Below, piece by piece: positions 21,286 to 29,000 of a stretch of DNA of 40,608 bases. Every line of letters starts with the position of its first letter. The first letter of the stretch is position 1. The position numbers and the translations under genes are program-made. Source of the DNA: Alphaproteobacteria bacterium (GTDB lineage Bacteria > Pseudomonadota > Alphaproteobacteria > Bin95); assembly GCA_022827685.1 (NCBI GenBank), contig JAJEIH010000148.1, positions 1 to 40,608 of the forward strand, read 5' to 3'. The notes under the pieces were generated by a model, which had not been told where the DNA came from, made no database searches, and saw only the letters and a list, made by a program, of their open reading frames with translations.

Positions 21286-21705
21286 ATGGCTCCGACGCGC
21301 AGGGATGTGATGAGGCTGGGCGGCTTTGCCGCCGCTGCGGCGATGCTTCCCGCCGGCGCGGCGGCGGATACGAACGGCGTCGCCGGGGCCATCGCGGCCT
21401 TCACGAAAGGCGCCAGGGCGCTGGAAGCCGGCGTATCGCTGGACGTGCCCGAGATTGCCGACAATGGCGGCGCGGTGCCGGTCCGGGTCGCTGCGGAGGG
21501 CGCGCGGCACATTGCGCTTTTCGCCGACGCGAACCCGAATCCCGGCGTGGCCGTGTTTTCCTTCGGGAGGCTGACGCCGCCTGAGGCCACGATCCGCATC
21601 CGGCTCGCCAGGAGCCAGAACGTGATCGCGGTGGCCGAGATGGCGGACGGCACGTTCCGCAAGGCCAGCCGGCAGGTCTCGGTGACGGTCGGCGGCTGCG
21701 GGTGA
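21286..21705 (+). CDS. soxY: Sulfur-carrier protein SoxY
   Basis: A 139-residue periplasmic carrier that binds sulfur intermediates on its C-terminal Cys during thiosulfate oxidation. A twin-arginine signal is present (TRRDVMRLGGFAAAAAM, R5-R6) ahead of a hydrophobic stretch. The fold is recognisable by AAEGARHIALFADANPNPGVAVF. The protein ends VGGCG with the carrier Cys at 138; the canonical tail is GGCGG, so one terminal Gly is missing. soxZ follows 10 bases later. None of soxXA, soxB or soxCD is in the window, so SoxY must work with enzymes encoded elsewhere or in another sulfur pathway. Confidence 0.92.
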   Translation: MAPTRRDVMRLGGFAAAAAMLPAGAAADTNGVAGAIAAFTKGARALEAGVSLDVPEIADNGGAVPVRVAAEGARHIALFADANPNPGVAVFSFGRLTPPEATIRIRLARSQNVIAVAEMADGTFRKASRQVSVTVGGCG

Positions 21706-21715
21706 GGGGCCGGAC

Positions 21716-22042
21716 ATGGCGAAATCCACGCCCCGCGTAAAGTTCCCGAAATCGGTCGAGGCGAACACGCCCTTCACGGTCAGGACGAAAATCACCCACC
21801 CGATGCATACGGGGCTGCGCCGCGACCGCGACGGCAAGCCGATACCCCGCTGGATCGTCAACAGCTTCACGGTGCGGTTCAACGGCGAGGAGGCGCTCTC
21901 CGTCGCGCTGGAGCCGGCGGTTTCGAGCGATCCCTATATCCGGTTCGAGCTGTCCCTGCCGGAGTCGGGCCTGCTCGAATTCGAATGGCGCGACGATGAC
22001 GGCTCGATCTACAGCCTCAGCAGGGAGGTCGCCGTCAAGTAG
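21716..22042 (+). CDS. soxZ: Thiosulfate oxidation carrier complex protein SoxZ
   Basis: A 108-residue immunoglobulin-like partner of SoxY that forms the SoxYZ heterodimer in the periplasm, being exported with SoxY. Recognised by ITHPMHTGLRRDRDGKPIPRWIV near 25-50 and by the C-terminal LLEFEWRDDDGS segment. It has no signal peptide, as usual for SoxZ, which is carried through Tat by SoxY. The gene ends 8 bases from the convergent stop of the YeeE-like transporter, so no terminator room exists between them. Confidence 0.95.
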   Translation: MAKSTPRVKFPKSVEANTPFTVRTKITHPMHTGLRRDRDGKPIPRWIVNSFTVRFNGEEALSVALEPAVSSDPYIRFELSLPESGLLEFEWRDDDGSIYSLSREVAVK

Positions 22043-22050
22043 GGCAGGCC

Positions 22051-23094
22051 TCAATGGCGGCCGGCGAGGACCGCGCCCGCAACCTTCGCGGAGGCGGCCA
22101 TGGCGGCAAGCGCCAGCAGGGCCGCGAGGCTGGCGGTGGACATGCCGGAGAGGCCCGCGCCGACCGTGCAGCCGCCCGCCAGCACGCCGCCCGCCCCCAT
22201 CATCACGGCGCCGGCAAGGTAGCGCCCGGTCTGCCGGGGGCTTTCGAGGCTCTCCCAGCGGAACTCGCCTGCCGCCAGCGCCGCGGCCAGGCTGCCGGCG
22301 ATGACGCCTGCCGCAAGCCCGGTGCCGAAGCCGGCCGGAATGGAGGTTGCCGCCACGGCCCAGAACAGGGTGTCGGCCGTCGGCCCGGTGAAGCCCATCG
22401 ACTGGAGCGGAATCGGGTCGAAATCGTCGAGCAGCAGGAAGCCCGTGCCGATCCACCCCAACGGCACCAGCAGGCCGATTACCCCCGCCATCGCCAGGCG
22501 GGAGGCCGGCGCGCCGGAACGCAGCGCGAAGACCGCCGCCAGCAGCGCGAGGCCGAGCGGCCAGGCTTCTCCGCCGGGCAGGACCGTCAGCGCCGGCGCT
22601 TCGCCGCCATAGACGCTTGCCTCGCCGAGCGCCTGGCGCAGCGGCGCCAGCACCCCCTTCATCGCCGCATGGGCGGTTATCGCAAAGACGACCAGCACGA
22701 AGAGGGCGCGCAGATTGCCGCTGCCGGTGAGCACGGTGAGGCGCGACACGCACCCCCCGGCCAGCACCATGCCGGTCCCGAACAGCGCGCCGCCCAGCAG
22801 CGCGGACAGGACCGGAATGTCCGCGGCGAGAAAGCGGTGCGCCTCGAAGGAAACCAGGTCCATGGCAACCGCCAGCCGGGTTCCGGCTATCGCCGTGGCC
22901 AGCGCCATAACCCAGGCGCCCAGCGCGGGAAGGCAGTCGCGCCACCGGCCGACCAGGCTCCGGCGGAGGCAGAAGGCGCTGCGCTGCGCCAGCACGCCGT
23001 AGAGGCAGCCCAGCACCAGCCCGAGCAGGACGGAAGCCGCCAGCGGCGTCGTTTCCTCGAATCCAAGCGTCTCGAACATCGGCCGGACCGACAC
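22051..23094 (-). CDS. YeeE/YedE family sulfur transporter (TsuA-like)
   Basis: A 347-residue multi-pass inner-membrane protein of the YeeE/YedE (DUF395) family; the characterised member imports thiosulfate by way of conserved cysteines. Two pseudo-symmetric halves each carry the motif: AGGCVSR with Cys115 and AGGCTVGAGLSG with Cys309, and an N-terminal RSAFCLRR. About nine to ten hydrophobic segments are visible. Facing soxYZ tail to tail, it likely moves reduced sulfur across the inner membrane, which could feed cytoplasmic sulfur use or remove sulfur from SoxY. The orientation means separate control from soxYZ. Confidence 0.9.
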   Translation of the reverse strand: MSVRPMFETLGFEETTPLAASVLLGLVLGCLYGVLAQRSAFCLRRSLVGRWRDCLPALGAWVMALATAIAGTRLAVAMDLVSFEAHRFLAADIPVLSALLGGALFGTGMVLAGGCVSRLTVLTGSGNLRALFVLVVFAITAHAAMKGVLAPLRQALGEASVYGGEAPALTVLPGGEAWPLGLALLAAVFALRSGAPASRLAMAGVIGLLVPLGWIGTGFLLLDDFDPIPLQSMGFTGPTADTLFWAVAATSIPAGFGTGLAAGVIAGSLAAALAAGEFRWESLESPRQTGRYLAGAVMMGAGGVLAGGCTVGAGLSGMSTASLAALLALAAMAASAKVAGAVLAGRH

Positions 23095-24090: not shown

Positions 24091-25242
24091 ATGTCGGAAG
24101 CCGCGCATCCCGGCTGGGCCGTTTACGATCTGGACCGGCTGCTGGCCAATCTCGCCGCGATCCGCCGCCGGTGCGCGCCCGGGCAGGCCTGCATCGCCGC
24201 GCTCAAGGGCAATGCCTACGGACATGGCGCCGCGCCCGTGGCGCGGGCGCTCGATGGCGAGGGGCTCGCGGCGTTCATGACGGGCTCCTTCGACGAGGCC
24301 TGCCGGCTGCGCGCGGAGGGGCTGCGCACGCCCGTCGTCATGTTCGCCGGCGCGCTGCCGGAAGGCATGGCCGATCTCGTGGGCGCCGGGCTGGTGCCGA
24401 CAATCGTGGACCGGGCGGGCGCCGAAGCCGCAGCGCAGGCGGCGGCGGGGAAGCCGGCTCCGGTCTATGTCAAGGTCGATGCCGGGCTCGGCCGGCTCGG
24501 CGTGCCGCTCGAGGAGGCCGAGGGTTTCCTTGCCGGTCTTGCCGACATGCCCGGCCTCGAAGTGCAGGGGCTCTATACGCATCTGCCCTTCGGCGATGCG
24601 CGCGGGCGCGACTGGGCCAGGGAACGGTTCGACGCTTTCGACGCGCTGCTCGCGCGCCTCGAAGCGCGAGGGCTGGCGCCGCCGGTCACCCAGGCCGGCG
24701 CCAGCGCCTCCGTCGCCGCCGGACTGCCCGACCGGTCCAATGCGGTCTGCGTCGGCCACCTGCTCTACGGCCTCTCGCCCTTCGCCGATGCCTCGGTTGC
24801 GGATGTATCCGCGTTCAAGCCGGTCCTTGCCGAGGTCGGGAGCCGGCTGGTGCAGGTCTCCGACCATCCCCAGGGAAGCGACATCGCCATCGCCGGCAGC
24901 TACGGCATACGCCGCGGCCGGCGCACCGGGGTCGCGCCCGTCGGCGCCGCACAGGGCCTGGCCCGGCCCGCGCCGGGCAGCCGGCCGGAAGCGCTGATAC
25001 GCGGCCGGCGGGCGCCGATCCTGGCCGTGTCGCTCGAACACCTGACCCTCGACCTCTCGGAGGTCGAGGACGCTGCGGTCGGCGATGCCGTGCTGCTGCT
25101 CGGCGGGGATGGCGGCGCCGCTATCGGGCTGGGCGAGCTCGCCGCCTGGTCCGGGAGGCGGGAGCTCGACACGGTATTGGCGCTCTCGGGCCGGCTGGCT
25201 GCGCATTACCGCGGTGCGGCGGGCGGCGCTACTCGTATTTGA
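24091..25242 (+). CDS. Alanine racemase family protein
   Basis: A 383-residue PLP enzyme of the alanine racemase fold: N-terminal TIM barrel and C-terminal beta domain. The PLP lysine is K39 in KGNAYGHG (canonical KADAYGHG), the phosphate-side GASASVAAGLPD and a VCVGHLLYGLSP segment follow, and the second catalytic base is Y271 in GSYGIRRG. The segment equivalent to the substrate-side GYADG reads VGAAQG, so the second tyrosine of that loop is absent; substrate preference may therefore differ from L-alanine. ATG 24091 follows a GGGGAGGG site. The 3' end overlaps that of the cytochrome fusion gene by 14 bases. Whether it serves cell-wall synthesis or catabolism cannot be told. Confidence 0.85.
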   Translation: MSEAAHPGWAVYDLDRLLANLAAIRRRCAPGQACIAALKGNAYGHGAAPVARALDGEGLAAFMTGSFDEACRLRAEGLRTPVVMFAGALPEGMADLVGAGLVPTIVDRAGAEAAAQAAAGKPAPVYVKVDAGLGRLGVPLEEAEGFLAGLADMPGLEVQGLYTHLPFGDARGRDWARERFDAFDALLARLEARGLAPPVTQAGASASVAAGLPDRSNAVCVGHLLYGLSPFADASVADVSAFKPVLAEVGSRLVQVSDHPQGSDIAIAGSYGIRRGRRTGVAPVGAAQGLARPAPGSRPEALIRGRRAPILAVSLEHLTLDLSEVEDAAVGDAVLLLGGDGGAAIGLGELAAWSGRRELDTVLALSGRLAAHYRGAAGGATRI

Positions 25243-26002
25243 GCGGCTCGGCGAGTTCCGCCGGGGCGAGCGAGGCGGCATAGGCCAGGATCGCGTCGAT
25301 GTCGGCGAGCGTGATCTCCAGCGGCGCGATCGGCGGCGGACGCGCCTCGTCGAAGGGCGGCGTGACGCCGGGGACCTGCGTGAAGGCCGGATGCGGGTTT
25401 AGCGTGAAAAACGCCCGGAAGCGCCGCTCCCAGTCGCCGAGCGTGCGCAGCACGGCGAAGGACGGCGTCGAGTCGATGCCCCCCATGCGGTTCTTCTCCC
25501 CGACCACATGGCAGCGCCCGCAATTGACCAGCGCCAGACGCTCGCCCGCCAGCGCATCGCCCGTCACCGCCGGGCCCTTCACTTCCACTTTGGCGTCCGC
25601 CGCCGGCTCGTAGAGCGCCTTCCCGTCCGGCGCGAAGGACGCCACCGTGCGCTGGCCGATTTCGGAGGCGAGCCAGTCGAGGAAGCGGCCCGCCAGCGCC
25701 TGTTTCGCGCCCGCGCCGGCGCCGGCCAGATAGACCGTCTCCCCGCCGCGGAAGACCGGGCGGCCCCCGTCCACGGCGGGGCCGATCAGCACCTCCGCCT
25801 CAATGCCGGGTTCGAGCGGGACCGAGGTTGCGCGGATGCCGGTCTTCAGCGAAAAGCGCGGCAGCATGTGCTTCAGCAGCCCGCTCTCGATCAGCTCGGG
25901 GCTCGCCGCCACCGTTATGCGGCGCTCCTCAGCCCCTGCGCCGGCCGCCGCCAGCATCAGCACCGCGGCCAGTCCGAGTCTCCACCGGATCGACATCGCC
26001 AT
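25229..26002 (-). CDS. Fusion of TupA-like binding domain and cytochrome c domain
   Basis: A 257-residue secreted protein with a signal peptide (RWRLGLAAVLMLAAAGAGA). Residues about 25-55 (ITVAASPELIESGLLKHMLP) resemble the start of tungstate/molybdate-binding proteins, and residues 105-135 (FLDWLASEIGQRTVASFAPDGK) resemble their C-terminal end, with most of the middle of such a protein missing. The C-terminal half is a mono-haem cytochrome c: C161, C164 and H165 in CGRCH, and a likely distal Met in RMGG. It is therefore a periplasmic electron carrier with a reduced ligand-binding module. No enzyme partner is adjacent. The fusion is unusual; the family of cytochromes ending PHPAFTQVPGVTPPF may well carry it elsewhere. 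Confidence 0.75.
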   Translation of the reverse strand: MAMSIRWRLGLAAVLMLAAAGAGAEERRITVAASPELIESGLLKHMLPRFSLKTGIRATSVPLEPGIEAEVLIGPAVDGGRPVFRGGETVYLAGAGAGAKQALAGRFLDWLASEIGQRTVASFAPDGKALYEPAADAKVEVKGPAVTGDALAGERLALVNCGRCHVVGEKNRMGGIDSTPSFAVLRTLGDWERRFRAFFTLNPHPAFTQVPGVTPPFDEARPPPIAPLEITLADIDAILAYAASLAPAELAEPLKYE

Positions 26003-26164
26003 TCCTCCCGCGCCGAGGAAACGGCTAGCCTAGCCCGGATTTCCCGCCGGGGTCACGGCCGGCATTGTCGAAACCGGCCTGTTCGCTGCAAACTGCCGGA
26101 TCGGCCTTGATTGCGCCGGACACCGCTTCTAGCTTCGGGCGGCAACGAACGGAGCGGCGCGGCT

Positions 26165-26395
26165 GTGGCGAGCATCACGATCCGCAAACTCGACGACGAA
26201 GTGAAAAGCCGCCTTCGCATGAGAGCGGCCGGGAACGGCTGATCGATGGAAGAGGAAGCGCGCGTCATCCTGCACGAGGCCGTCGGGCGCGAACCGAAGA
26301 CGCAGAATCTCGTTACCGTCATTCGCTCCCGTTTCGGGCCCGAGAACGGCGTGGACCTGGAACTGCCCCAGCGGGAACCGATTCGCTTCGATTGA
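26165..26395 (+). pseudogene. FitA/VapB-like ribbon-helix-helix antitoxin with an internal stop
   Basis: Reading from the GTG at 26165, the frame gives MASITIRKLDDEVKSRLRMR AAGNG and then TGA at 26240-26242, after which the same frame continues SMEEEARVILHEAVGREP to a stop at 26393-26395. The two halves join into a typical FitA-type antitoxin in which G-R-S-M-E-E-E-A-R is expected: a single change from CGA (Arg) to TGA explains the stop. About 77 codons in total. No FitB-type PIN toxin gene follows, although one usually overlaps the antitoxin end. Translation could restart at ATG 26246. It is most likely a decaying antitoxin orphan. Confidence 0.72.
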
Positions 26396-26487
26396 TCGGC
26401 CGTTCTCATGCGTAGGCGGCTTTTCCCGGGCGGCCACGAGGTCTGACGTCTCCGGCCCGACGCCGCGCGGACTTTGCGGGGAGTCTT

Positions 26488-26543: not shown

Positions 26544-26747
26544 ATGAGCGGCGATTTCAACATGTCGATGCGCAAATTCCTGAAGCAGGTCGGCGTGACC
26601 TCCCAGCAGGCGATCGAGGAGGCGATGCGCAACGCCGGGGAGGAGCGGACGGCCGGGAAGAGCTTCACCGCCCGCATGGTGCTGACCATCGACGGGCTCG
26701 ACCTCAGCCACAGCGTCGAGGGGCGCATCGACGGGAAGGCCGGATGA
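26544..26747 (+). CDS. DUF6494 family protein
   Basis: A 67-residue protein recognised as DUF6494 by NMSMRKFLKQVGVTSQQAIEEAMR and MVLTIDGLDLSHSVEGRID. It has a helical first half and a beta hairpin in the second; no Cys and no transmembrane segment. No function is known for the family. It has an excellent ribosome-binding site (AGGAGGAGG at 26530-26538) and its TGA overlaps the ATG of the Mrp gene, so it is the first cistron of a coupled four-gene unit and could be an accessory or adaptor of the Mrp protein. Confidence 0.85.
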   Translation: MSGDFNMSMRKFLKQVGVTSQQAIEEAMRNAGEERTAGKSFTARMVLTIDGLDLSHSVEGRIDGKAG

Positions 26748-27811
26748 CCGCAACGCGCGAGGAGGTGCTGGCGGCGCTCAAGGGCGTCACCGACCCGATC
26801 AGCGGGCAGGACCTCGTCTCCGCCGGTCCCGTGCGGGCGCTGACGGTGGACGGCGGCACGGTGCGCTTCGTGCTGGAGATCGACCCGGCGCGCGCGGAGC
26901 TCATGGAAGGCGTGCGGGCCGAGGCGGAAGCGGCGGTGCGCGCGGTGCCGGGCGTCGAGCAGGTGTCGGCCGTGATGACCGCCCACCGCGACGCCGCGCC
27001 GGGGCCGGAACTCAATATCGGCCGGCGTTCCGAGCCGCAGGGGCCCCAGCAGATTCCGGGCGTGGACCGCATCGTCGCCATCGCGTCGGGCAAGGGCGGC
27101 GTCGGCAAGTCCACGGTGACCGCCAATCTCGCCGCAGCGCTGGCGGCCGAGGGGCGCCGCGTCGGCCTGCTCGATGCCGATGTTTACGGGCCGTCGCAGC
27201 CGAGGATGCTCGGCGTTTCCGGCCGCCCGGCCTCGCCCGACGGCAAGACCATCCTGCCGCTGCGCAACCACGGCGTCACCATGATGTCTATCGGGCTGAT
27301 GACGCGCGAGGACGAGGCGGTCGTCTGGCGCGGACCGATGCTGATGGGCGCGCTGCAGCAGATGATGAACCAGGTGCAGTGGGGCGCGCTCGACATTCTG
27401 CTGGCGGACCTGCCGCCCGGCACGGGCGATGTGCCGATGACCCTCTCGCAGAACGCCGAGGTCACCGGCGCCATCGTCGTCTCCACCCCGCAGGACGTGG
27501 CCTTGCTGGACGCGCGCAAGGGCGTGGACATGTTCCGCAAGATGTCCGTGCCGATCCTCGGCATGATCGAGAACATGAGCACGCATATCTGCTCCAATTG
27601 CGGGCATGAGGAGCATCTGTTCGGCCATGGCGGCGTGCGCGCCGAGGCGGAGAAGCTCGGCATCCCGCTGCTGGCGGAGATTCCGCTGGCGCTCGGCATC
27701 CGGCTCGCATCCGACGGCGGCGCGCCCATCGTGGTGTCGAAGCCCGCCTCGCCGGAAGCAGCGGCCTTCCGCCAGGTCGCGCAACATCTGATCGAGACCG
27801 GGGCCGGATGA
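26744..27811 (+). CDS. mrp: Mrp/NBP35 family Fe-S carrier ATPase
   Basis: A 355-residue P-loop NTPase that binds and transfers Fe-S clusters to target apoproteins (Mrp/ApbC, NBP35 family). The N-terminal DUF59/MIP18 domain covers about 5-85; the deviant Walker A is GKGGVGKS at 116-123; LLDADVYGPSQPRMLG and ADLPPGTGD follow; and the cluster-binding CxxC is C283-S-N-C286 in THICSNCGH. Two monomers would share one [4Fe-4S] cluster at these Cys. ATG 26744 overlaps the DUF6494 stop (ATGA), and its own stop overlaps the ligase-like gene. Its location suggests that it serves the proteins of this operon rather than, or as well as, general cluster delivery. Confidence 0.95.
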   Translation: MTATREEVLAALKGVTDPISGQDLVSAGPVRALTVDGGTVRFVLEIDPARAELMEGVRAEAEAAVRAVPGVEQVSAVMTAHRDAAPGPELNIGRRSEPQGPQQIPGVDRIVAIASGKGGVGKSTVTANLAAALAAEGRRVGLLDADVYGPSQPRMLGVSGRPASPDGKTILPLRNHGVTMMSIGLMTREDEAVVWRGPMLMGALQQMMNQVQWGALDILLADLPPGTGDVPMTLSQNAEVTGAIVVSTPQDVALLDARKGVDMFRKMSVPILGMIENMSTHICSNCGHEEHLFGHGGVRAEAEKLGIPLLAEIPLALGIRLASDGGAPIVVSKPASPEAAAFRQVAQHLIETGAG

Positions 27812-28524
27812 GCGAGCCCGTCTTCCCGCCGCTGTTCAGGGGCGAGGCGGTCGGGGGCCGCGTCGATCCCTTCGCCAAGGCCTGCTCCTCGGCGGCGCTC
27901 GGCTGCGACGGCGGAACGATCTTCTACAACATCGCCGCCGACTGGCTGAAGGCGGCCATCGTGTTCGCGCCGGAAGTGCCGCTGGAGGACGCGATGGTGA
28001 TGCTGCCGGCCTGCGGGGTCGGGTTCCAGAATGCGCTGGGCGCGCTTGCGCCGCCGGAGGTCGCCGTGCATCTCACCTGGGAGGGCGGAATCCTGGTGAA
28101 CGGGGCCTCCTGCGGGCGGCTGCGCGCCGACGCTTCCGACTGCGGGCCGGACGAGGTGCCCGACTGGCTGGTCGTCGGCCTCGAAGTGCCGCTCATCGCC
28201 GAGGACGCGGACGCGCCCGGCGCCGCGCCGGACCGGACCTCGCTCTATGAGGAGGGCTGCGTGGAGGTGGCGCCGGATGCGCTGCTGGAAAGCTGGTCGC
28301 GCCACACGCTGGTCTGGATCAACCGCTGGTCCGACGACGGCGCCGCGCCGCTGCACGGGGAATGGCGCGGGCTTGCCCACGGCATCGGCGAGGAGGTTTC
28401 GGTCGGCGGGCGGACGGGCCTCTTCGTCGGCATAGACGAGCGCTTCGGCATGCTGCTGCGCGAGGGCGGGACGACGAGCCTGCTGCCGCTCTCCGGCCTG
28501 CTGGAGCGGGGAGGAGAGACGTGA
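27808..28524 (+). CDS. Biotin/lipoate protein ligase-like protein with DUF4444
   Basis: A 238-residue protein of the biotin/lipoate A/B ligase superfamily. Residues about 20-140 fit the ligase core and residues about 165-235 (LESWSRHTLVWINRWSDDGAAPLHGEWR) the DUF4444 tail. In the segment where biotin ligases have the catalytic KWPND, this protein has L-T90-W-E-G-G, so the catalytic Lys and the Asn-Asp are absent. The GRGRxGR loop is also absent. It is therefore unlikely to work as a normal ligase; a binding, scaffolding or different acyl-transfer role is possible. It starts by a 4-nt ATGA overlap with mrp and ends in a GTGA overlap with the DUF6505 gene. Confidence 0.82.
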   Translation: MSEPVFPPLFRGEAVGGRVDPFAKACSSAALGCDGGTIFYNIAADWLKAAIVFAPEVPLEDAMVMLPACGVGFQNALGALAPPEVAVHLTWEGGILVNGASCGRLRADASDCGPDEVPDWLVVGLEVPLIAEDADAPGAAPDRTSLYEEGCVEVAPDALLESWSRHTLVWINRWSDDGAAPLHGEWRGLAHGIGEEVSVGGRTGLFVGIDERFGMLLREGGTTSLLPLSGLLERGGET

Positions 28525-29000
28525 ATCTCGCGCGCGCCATCCATTTCGACGAAAGCGACCTGCGCATCTTCCACAGCCCGGCGCGCACGGGCGAGTGGTG
28601 CGTTCCGGGCGGCTTCGAGTTCTCCAACTGGTCCGAGGCGGACCTTGTCGGCAAGGCGCGGCAGGCCTTCGCCAATGGCTGGCTCGGCGTCGAGACCTTC
28701 GGGCGCGTCACCTTCGTCGCCGTCACCGCGGTCCGGGAGGAGGAATTCGAGGCGCTGGCGGCGCGGCTCGCCGGGCATTTCGTCCAGGTTTACGGCGCGC
28801 CCTCGGTCGAGGCGGCGCTGCCCGTCGCCAGGGAGGAGCTGGAGCATATGGCCGAGCTCTGCGAGGACCACGACCCCAACACCCTGCTGACGGTCGCGCG
28901 CGAACTCACCGAAGCGGGCGTGCGCGAAAGCTTCCGCTCCATCAAGCCCCAGGACGCCGGCCTCGAACAATTCGCCATCCACGGCGATCTGGAGGGGTGA
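28521..29000 (+). CDS. DUF6505 family protein
   Basis: A 159-residue protein starting at a GTG (28521) that overlaps the ligase-like stop. The family is recognised from RAIHFDESDLRIFHSPARTGEWCVPGGFEFS and FANGWLGVETFGRVTFVAVT. The central part is alpha/beta, and the C-terminus is helical with DHDPNTLLTVARELTE. It is cytosolic and of unknown function. It closes the four-gene unit; a convergent deoxyribosyltransferase gene ends 18 bases further on. Confidence 0.82.
   Translation: MNLARAIHFDESDLRIFHSPARTGEWCVPGGFEFSNWSEADLVGKARQAFANGWLGVETFGRVTFVAVTAVREEEFEALAARLAGHFVQVYGAPSVEAALPVAREELEHMAELCEDHDPNTLLTVARELTEAGVRESFRSIKPQDAGLEQFAIHGDLEG

Follow-up and report, generated by a model that had tools for sequence, protein, structure and literature searches.

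The window analysed here, a 40.6 kb contig (C134) of an alphaproteobacterial genome (G000), contains a compact four-gene unit that encodes DUF6494, an Mrp-type iron-sulfur (Fe-S) carrier, a biotin ligase-like protein and DUF6505. The unit is linked, with good support, to FDH3, a molybdenum/tungsten (Mo/W) formate dehydrogenase of the kind exported by the twin-arginine translocation (Tat) pathway, which this genome encodes on another contig. The features, inside the contig, are as follows.

26544..26747, plus strand: DUF6494, small protein of 67 amino acids (PF20104, E 5.4e-30)
26744..27811, plus strand: Mrp/NBP35-type Fe-S carrier ATPase, FDH3-linked paralogue (PF10609, E 5e-98, and PF01883; CxxC at 283-286)
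27808..28524, plus strand: ligase-like protein, predicted BirA-like fold without the catalytic lysines or GRGR loop (PF16917, E 2e-77, and DUF4444)
28521..29000, plus strand: DUF6505 protein of 159 amino acids, GTG start, predicted alpha+beta (PF20115, E 1.5e-82)
25229..26002, minus strand: divergent cytochrome c with one CxxCH, in part weakly TupA-like (homologue in 66/80 of the named loci defined below)

The open reading frames agree with the initial annotation, which had described four genes with a 4-nt overlap at every junction (ATGA, ATGA, GTGA). Each of the four products scores well against a known Pfam family, none carries an export signal by eye, and Pfam finds no DNA-binding family among them. 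A GGAGGAGG precedes DUF6494. The upstream cytochrome c gene, the loss of a second ligase lysine and the FDH3 cluster on the other contig lie beyond what that annotation had recorded.

Conserved linkage to FDH3

Relatives of the unit were found by genome scan; the best 80 of at least 576, nearly all from Rhodobacterales or their relatives, are the named loci counted here. In 74 of the 80 all four genes stand side by side, so the neighbour set that the initial annotation had suggested to be conserved in other alphaproteobacteria is indeed conserved. When the start of each gene is set by script to the start codon closest to that of the window protein, the 4-nt overlap is kept at the Mrp-ligase junction in 72/79 relatives, at the ligase-DUF6505 junction in 51/80 and at the DUF6494-Mrp junction in 19/74. 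Because these overlaps recur, the junctions exceed chance.

The same neighbourhood analysis places an FDH3-region gene beside the unit in 78/80 loci: FdhA in 74 and only the 4Fe-4S protein in four. In L163 (strain SZCCDBG043), for example, the complete unit is accompanied by FdhA, TorD and the 4Fe-4S gene. The two exceptions belong to the window's own lineage, a sister contig (L102) with a 99% identical DUF6505 and a Defluviicoccus bin (L103, 82%), and both of these genomes encode the FDH3 beta subunit on another contig (344 and 346 bits). Linkage extends to plasmids. Eight plasmid regions were examined, and in all six that are annotated (Alloyangia, Sulfitobacter, Sagittula, Sinorhizobium, Bradyrhizobium and Microvirga) the ligase-like gene and DUF6505 lie near DUF3306, TorD and FDH3 genes; in the two unannotated regions, taken for their DUF6494 (S. 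meliloti and Azospirillum), tblastn found no ligase-like gene. In a phylum-wide sample DUF6505 occurs in 27/398 genomes, and all 21 new ones, three of them outside Alphaproteobacteria, have the ligase-like gene, DUF6505 and two or more genes of the FDH3 cluster within 20 kb.

Co-occurrence was measured in an evenly drawn class sample of 190 alphaproteobacterial genomes, 27 of which carry FDH3 (beta subunit over cut-off). PF16917 alone is a poor marker here, as 124/190 genomes match it at E<=0.001, most of them weakly; the ligase-like protein was therefore counted only above 110 bits, a limit chosen after the scores had been seen. One hit above it (G087, 115 bits) was left out, being read as BirA; of the weak hits, that of G000 was read and is BirA, and the rest are assumed to be the same. 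With p values not corrected for kinship, FDH3 accompanies the ligase-like protein in 19/21 genomes (p 7e-18), DUF6505 in 17/19 (p 2e-15) and DUF6494 in 19/32 (p 7e-12); the corresponding figures are 22/25 for DUF6352 and 27/30 for DUF3306. In the two ligase-like genomes with beta below cut-off other markers are present: FdhA at a contig end in G127, DUF3306 and DUF6352 on broken contigs in G071. In 17/21 ligase-like genomes, one locus holds the ligase-like gene together with DUF6505 and two or more FDH3-cluster genes; G071 is too fragmented for its ligase-like gene to be placed relative to FDH3. Taken from genome context, FDH3 is very probably the target of the unit.

Among the 27 FDH3 genomes, 15 have both the ligase-like protein and DUF6505, four and two have one alone and six have neither (p 0.025), so the pair is loosely tied; DUF6352 is tied to neither. 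The idea that FDH3 clusters which have lost the ligase-like gene form a single branch was rejected (six changes, with 167 of 500 shuffles as low). DUF6352 (PF19879, also of no known function; e.g., L060-L063, L213, L222) is itself present in 22 of these 27 genomes, and the five that lack it are G075 and the four of the window type that have Mrp (G000, G022, G096, G154).

The FDH3 cluster and its separation from the unit

In G000, FDH3 lies inside a 45 kb contig, C164 (locus L056; beta 344 bits), as a cluster of 4Fe-4S protein, DUF3305, DUF3306, TorD, formate_TAT, FdhA, Fdh3B and FdhC. The FdhA proteins have the features of an exported Fe-S enzyme: a twin-arginine motif stands at the N-end in 39/40 loci, that of G000 included, the fortieth being an N-terminally partial match, and a CTHCSVGC-type Fe-S motif and a Cys active site (QARICH) are present in the 40 proteins read. 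The fdh3 of Methylobacterium extorquens PA1 is called the periplasmic formate dehydrogenase (PMC12180729), and Tat-exported enzymes of this kind are described as receiving their cofactors in the cytoplasm before export (PMC10924467). DUF3305/3306 have been placed upstream of fdhGHI, with DmsD/TorD (PMC4464133); the main text of that paper does not contain the word "Mrp", and its "biotin" passages concern biotin sulfoxide reductase. The unit is found in the same formate dehydrogenase loci as these redox enzyme maturation proteins of the TorD/NarJ type, but none of its four proteins is TorD-like.

FDH3 and the unit are on different contigs in this genome and in both sister genomes. In a tree made by a quick method, the FdhA of G000 groups with Rhodobacterales-type FDH3 (Shimodaira-Hasegawa-like approximate likelihood ratio test, SH-aLRT, 99). 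Since the window Mrp has its place among genomes of that same type, a common ancestry of the two halves is probable: they would have arrived by transfer from a Rhodobacterales-like donor and become separated afterwards.

The cytochrome c gene travelled with the unit. Its product joins a TupA-like stretch to a single-haem cytochrome c, with an export signal by eye. It has no Pfam match at E 0.01; the NCBIfam TupA model scores E 0.019, and PDB 5my5 ("ABC transporter periplasmic substrate-binding protein"), which we take to be TupA, scores E 2.8e-4. The 66 named loci with a homologue have it no more than 1.5 kb upstream of the unit, the other 14 showing none at E 1e-4, and CxxCH is present in 77/78 rows, four duplicates among them. 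Both it and the 4Fe-4S gene were found in 63 loci, and in 62 of these it lies on the minus strand, flanked by the 4Fe-4S gene and the unit. As it keeps this place, the moved block is one of five genes, and the fact that the block stayed intact after the split from FDH3 argues that its members act together. The cytochrome c protein is possibly an electron acceptor or a metal-sensing protein of FDH3.

Between this gene and DUF6494, about 430 nt (26035-26463) are missing from sister contig L102. Positions 26111-26242 within them encode the first part of a FitA-like antitoxin, interrupted by an in-frame stop (Pfam E 1.6e-10), and the stretch is apparently a decayed insert in the divergent promoter region. 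Also near the unit, at 21286-23094, SoxY, SoxZ and a Sulf_transp membrane protein make up a possible sulfur-oxidation locus or its remnant.

An FDH3-linked Mrp, probably dedicated

Members of the Mrp family are Fe-S carriers, and Ind1/NUBPL is an example of a target-dedicated carrier of the Mrp/NBP35 type. The window Mrp shares with Mrp/ApbC/NBP35 proteins the P-loop (GKGGVGKS at 116), the PF10609 and PF01883 domains and the CxxC, which is intact (C283-S-N-C286), as the initial annotation had stated; the CxxC is present in 88/88 Mrps taken from the loci compared. It differs from them in being an extra copy, the second full-length Mrp of its genome, which adjoins FDH3 accessory genes. In the Mrp tree it falls inside an FDH3-linked clade of 22 rows (support 97/95) of Rhodobacterales type, far from the other Mrp of G000, which strengthens the earlier suggestion of a dedicated carrier. 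It is the only member of the unit whose biochemistry is known, that of an Fe-S carrier, and would be expected to bind and transfer [4Fe-4S] clusters.

The Mrps at these loci are of more than one ancestry. Mrps at FDH3 or ligase-like loci are also found outside the 22-row clade (L062, L218, L219, L227, L228 and G135), and in G135 the sole full-length Mrp gene directly precedes ligase-like-DUF6505-DUF6352, away from FDH3. The FDH3-linkage label needs four changes on the tree, two of which are forced by well-supported branches. With window-type genomes left out (four in the class sample, five in the phylum sample, where three non-alphaproteobacterial loci are left out as well), an Mrp is present in the ligase-like locus of 2/17 class and 4/13 phylum genomes.

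A ligase fold without ligase residues

A solved close relative of the ligase-like protein is PDB 3BFM, which it matches at E 4e-87 over residues 2-232; that structure was deposited under the title "Biotin protein ligase-like protein of unknown function". The protein scores 259 bits against PF16917 and belongs to the same family as 3BFM, that of PF16917 and PF14563 (DUF4444). BirA is the closest functional class, and BirA-type ligase structures match at 1e-7 with a profile (A5) purged of BirA rows; the first profile (A2) contained one such row (L084), and dropping it weakened the BirA matches from 1e-11 to 1e-7 without removing them. A phmmer search with the single window protein returned 3BFM and one chance row, and BirA was not found. 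No mention of 3BFM or TM1040_0394 was found in the literature searched, and one may exist elsewhere in print.

The strand around W91 and VNG aligns with BirA; the catalytic residues are lost. The genome retains a separate, normal BirA (L002) with GRGRSGR, KWPNDV and AKLAGI, and it is to the KWPND of this protein that T90-W-E-G-G of the ligase-like protein aligns; Thr90 for the catalytic lysine, Gly-Gly for Asn-Asp and the missing GRGRxGR loop are thus as the initial annotation had read them. The KWPND lysine is kept in 0/107 family members, a set that is mostly of Rhodobacterales type and weights all such counts towards that group. The second ligase lysine (AK-LAG in BirA) is Ser101 in the window protein and is absent from 102/107 members; the five that have a lysine there are all among the 80 named loci, and none occurs in a smaller, more diverse set. 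In place of the GRGRxxR loop the window protein has GCDGGTI, and most of the 107 have C/A, A/P/G and V/I/L where the loop has its Arg residues. Other positions are conserved instead (W91, P118/W120, E149-G150, E161, R165 and H166, each in at least 101/107), as would be expected of a family that keeps its fold and changes its job. As judged from these alignments, the ligase-like protein is a BirA-like fold that has lost its catalytic residues.

DUF6494 and DUF6505

Structures were predicted for DUF6494 and DUF6505, and the fold searches indicated no function. The AlphaFold2 (AF2) model of DUF6494 (predicted local distance difference test, pLDDT, 93.3) has a long helix and a beta hairpin and gives no Foldseek match at E 0.001. 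The AF2 model of DUF6505 (pLDDT 77) gives none at E<=0.001, and VIA-align finds no convincing fold match, the best being ribosomal-protein rows at Z 3.0.

DUF6505 and the ligase-like gene lie at most 1 kb apart in 15/19 DUF6505 class genomes (a further hit, in G091, was below cut-off and excluded), and at L131 the pair is kept where DUF6494 and Mrp were not found. In two genomes of one family (G028 and G159), DUF6505 stands apart from FDH3, with no ligase-like partner in the stretch fetched (L067, 7736-8215, minus strand; L240, around 9815). In two small genomes that belong to one family (G008 and G142), DUF6494 (L088, 8674-8874; L089, 3089-3295) adjoins solute-binding, permease and ATPase genes of an iron-type ABC transporter, named by eye from sequence, a hint of an iron-related role. 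No paper naming DUF6505, DUF6494, DUF4444 or DUF6352, and no description of the four-gene set, was found in the literature searched; either may exist elsewhere in print.

A maturation set for FDH3 and the alternatives

The unit is probably an accessory set for FDH3 that acts in cytoplasmic maturation, with Mrp as the source of Fe-S clusters. In the absence of an export signal by eye, its four proteins would act in the cytoplasm, the compartment in which FdhA and Fdh3B have to be loaded with Fe-S clusters and cofactor ahead of Tat export. Mrp would bring [4Fe-4S] clusters to FDH3. The pseudo-ligase could dock or hold an FDH3 subunit, without catalysis, by means of the fold that in BirA grips the acceptor protein; DUF6505 would be the closest genetic partner of the pseudo-ligase and DUF6494 a small adaptor. 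Which subunit the ligase-like protein meets, and its partnership with DUF6505, are suggested by gene adjacency. A sharper version is offered tentatively: a biotin-ligase paralogue stripped of catalytic residues might form, with a dedicated Mrp and DUF6505, a complex that inserts Fe-S clusters into one specific target, a Tat-exported W/Mo formate dehydrogenase.

Several observations weigh against this account. The unit is physically apart from FDH3 in the very genome studied, where tblastn found no FDH3-cluster gene in C134, and the ligase-like gene lies outside the FDH3 locus in 3/21 ligase-like class genomes (G000, G135 and G105). No Mrp is present in the ligase-like locus of 15/21. The ligase-like protein and DUF6505 are not universally needed for FDH3, because eight of the 27 FDH3 genomes lack the former, ten the latter and six both; seven FDH3 clusters without the ligase-like gene are scattered on the FdhA tree (six changes, at least four forced). 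DUF6505 matches over cut-off (79 bits, one stop inside) in G119, which has no FDH3. DUF6494 is found in 32/190 genomes, 13 of them without FDH3 beta over cut-off and in varied settings, and may have a wider job; no fold match points to a function for DUF6505 or DUF6494. The initial annotation had proposed one Fe-S delivery module without naming its targets. A probable target can now be named, but because Mrp is sparse in ligase-like loci, DUF6494 occurs without FDH3 and the ligase-like gene is missing from eight FDH3 genomes, the evidence does not support reading the four genes as a single obligatory module.

The scarcity of Mrp would be expected if the ligase-like/DUF6505 pair worked alongside FdhD/MobA and a tungstate transporter to help insert the metal or the bis-pyranopterin guanine dinucleotide (bis-PGD) cofactor, Mrp being merely an operon neighbour. 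FdhD, MobA, MobB and Glp adjoin FDH3 in a number of loci, and the co-moved cytochrome c gene has its weak TupA-like part. L043 and L044 have TupA-like substrate-binding proteins close to the cluster (186 and 238 bits, short of the NCBI cut-off of 400), and the presence of these proteins is a hint that the FDH3 metal may be tungsten. This account is nevertheless rather unlikely: Mrps of more than one ancestry occupy FDH3 or ligase-like loci, and genes of the FdhD/MobA type lie outside the conserved unit. A regulatory or protective role for FDH3, by oxygen or redox sensing or electron transfer to cytochrome c, would suit the divergent cytochrome c gene that adjoins the unit in 66/80 loci, and DUF6494 does occur alone, in two genomes beside the iron-type ABC transporter; we regard it as quite improbable, given that the four proteins have neither an export signal by eye nor a Pfam DNA-binding family and that Mrp proteins carry Fe-S clusters. 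Retention of a modified ligase activity on an FDH3-linked acceptor, or binding of biotinyl- or lipoyl-AMP, would draw on the kept fold (3BFM at E 4e-87, BirA-type ligases at 1e-7) and on the five members with a lysine at the second site. Against it, the KWPND lysine is missing from all 107 members, the second from 102, and the GRGR loop is lost; a normal BirA is present in the genome, and Pfam detects no lipoyl- or biotinyl-type domain in the four unit proteins or the ten FDH3-cluster proteins scanned, which makes it most improbable. That unrelated housekeeping genes share an operon by chance is hardly credible: in the window the unit is surrounded by unrelated genes, but contiguity in 74/80 loci, FDH3 linkage over many families and the conserved 4-nt overlaps already contradict this.

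Implications

Maturation of the alpha subunit is described as the main bottleneck in heterologous production of FDH1, another W/Mo formate dehydrogenase (PMC13396061). Enzymes of this class attract interest for CO2/formate conversion, and a lack of accessory genes could contribute to a production problem of this kind for FDH3. With the unit assigned to FDH3, a dedicated bacterial Mrp gains a likely client, and a testable role is suggested for three Pfam families without known function (DUF6494, DUF6505 and DUF4444/PF16917) and for the orphan structure 3BFM. If the insertion complex exists as proposed, its fold would have passed from gripping biotin acceptor domains to gripping an apo-metalloenzyme.

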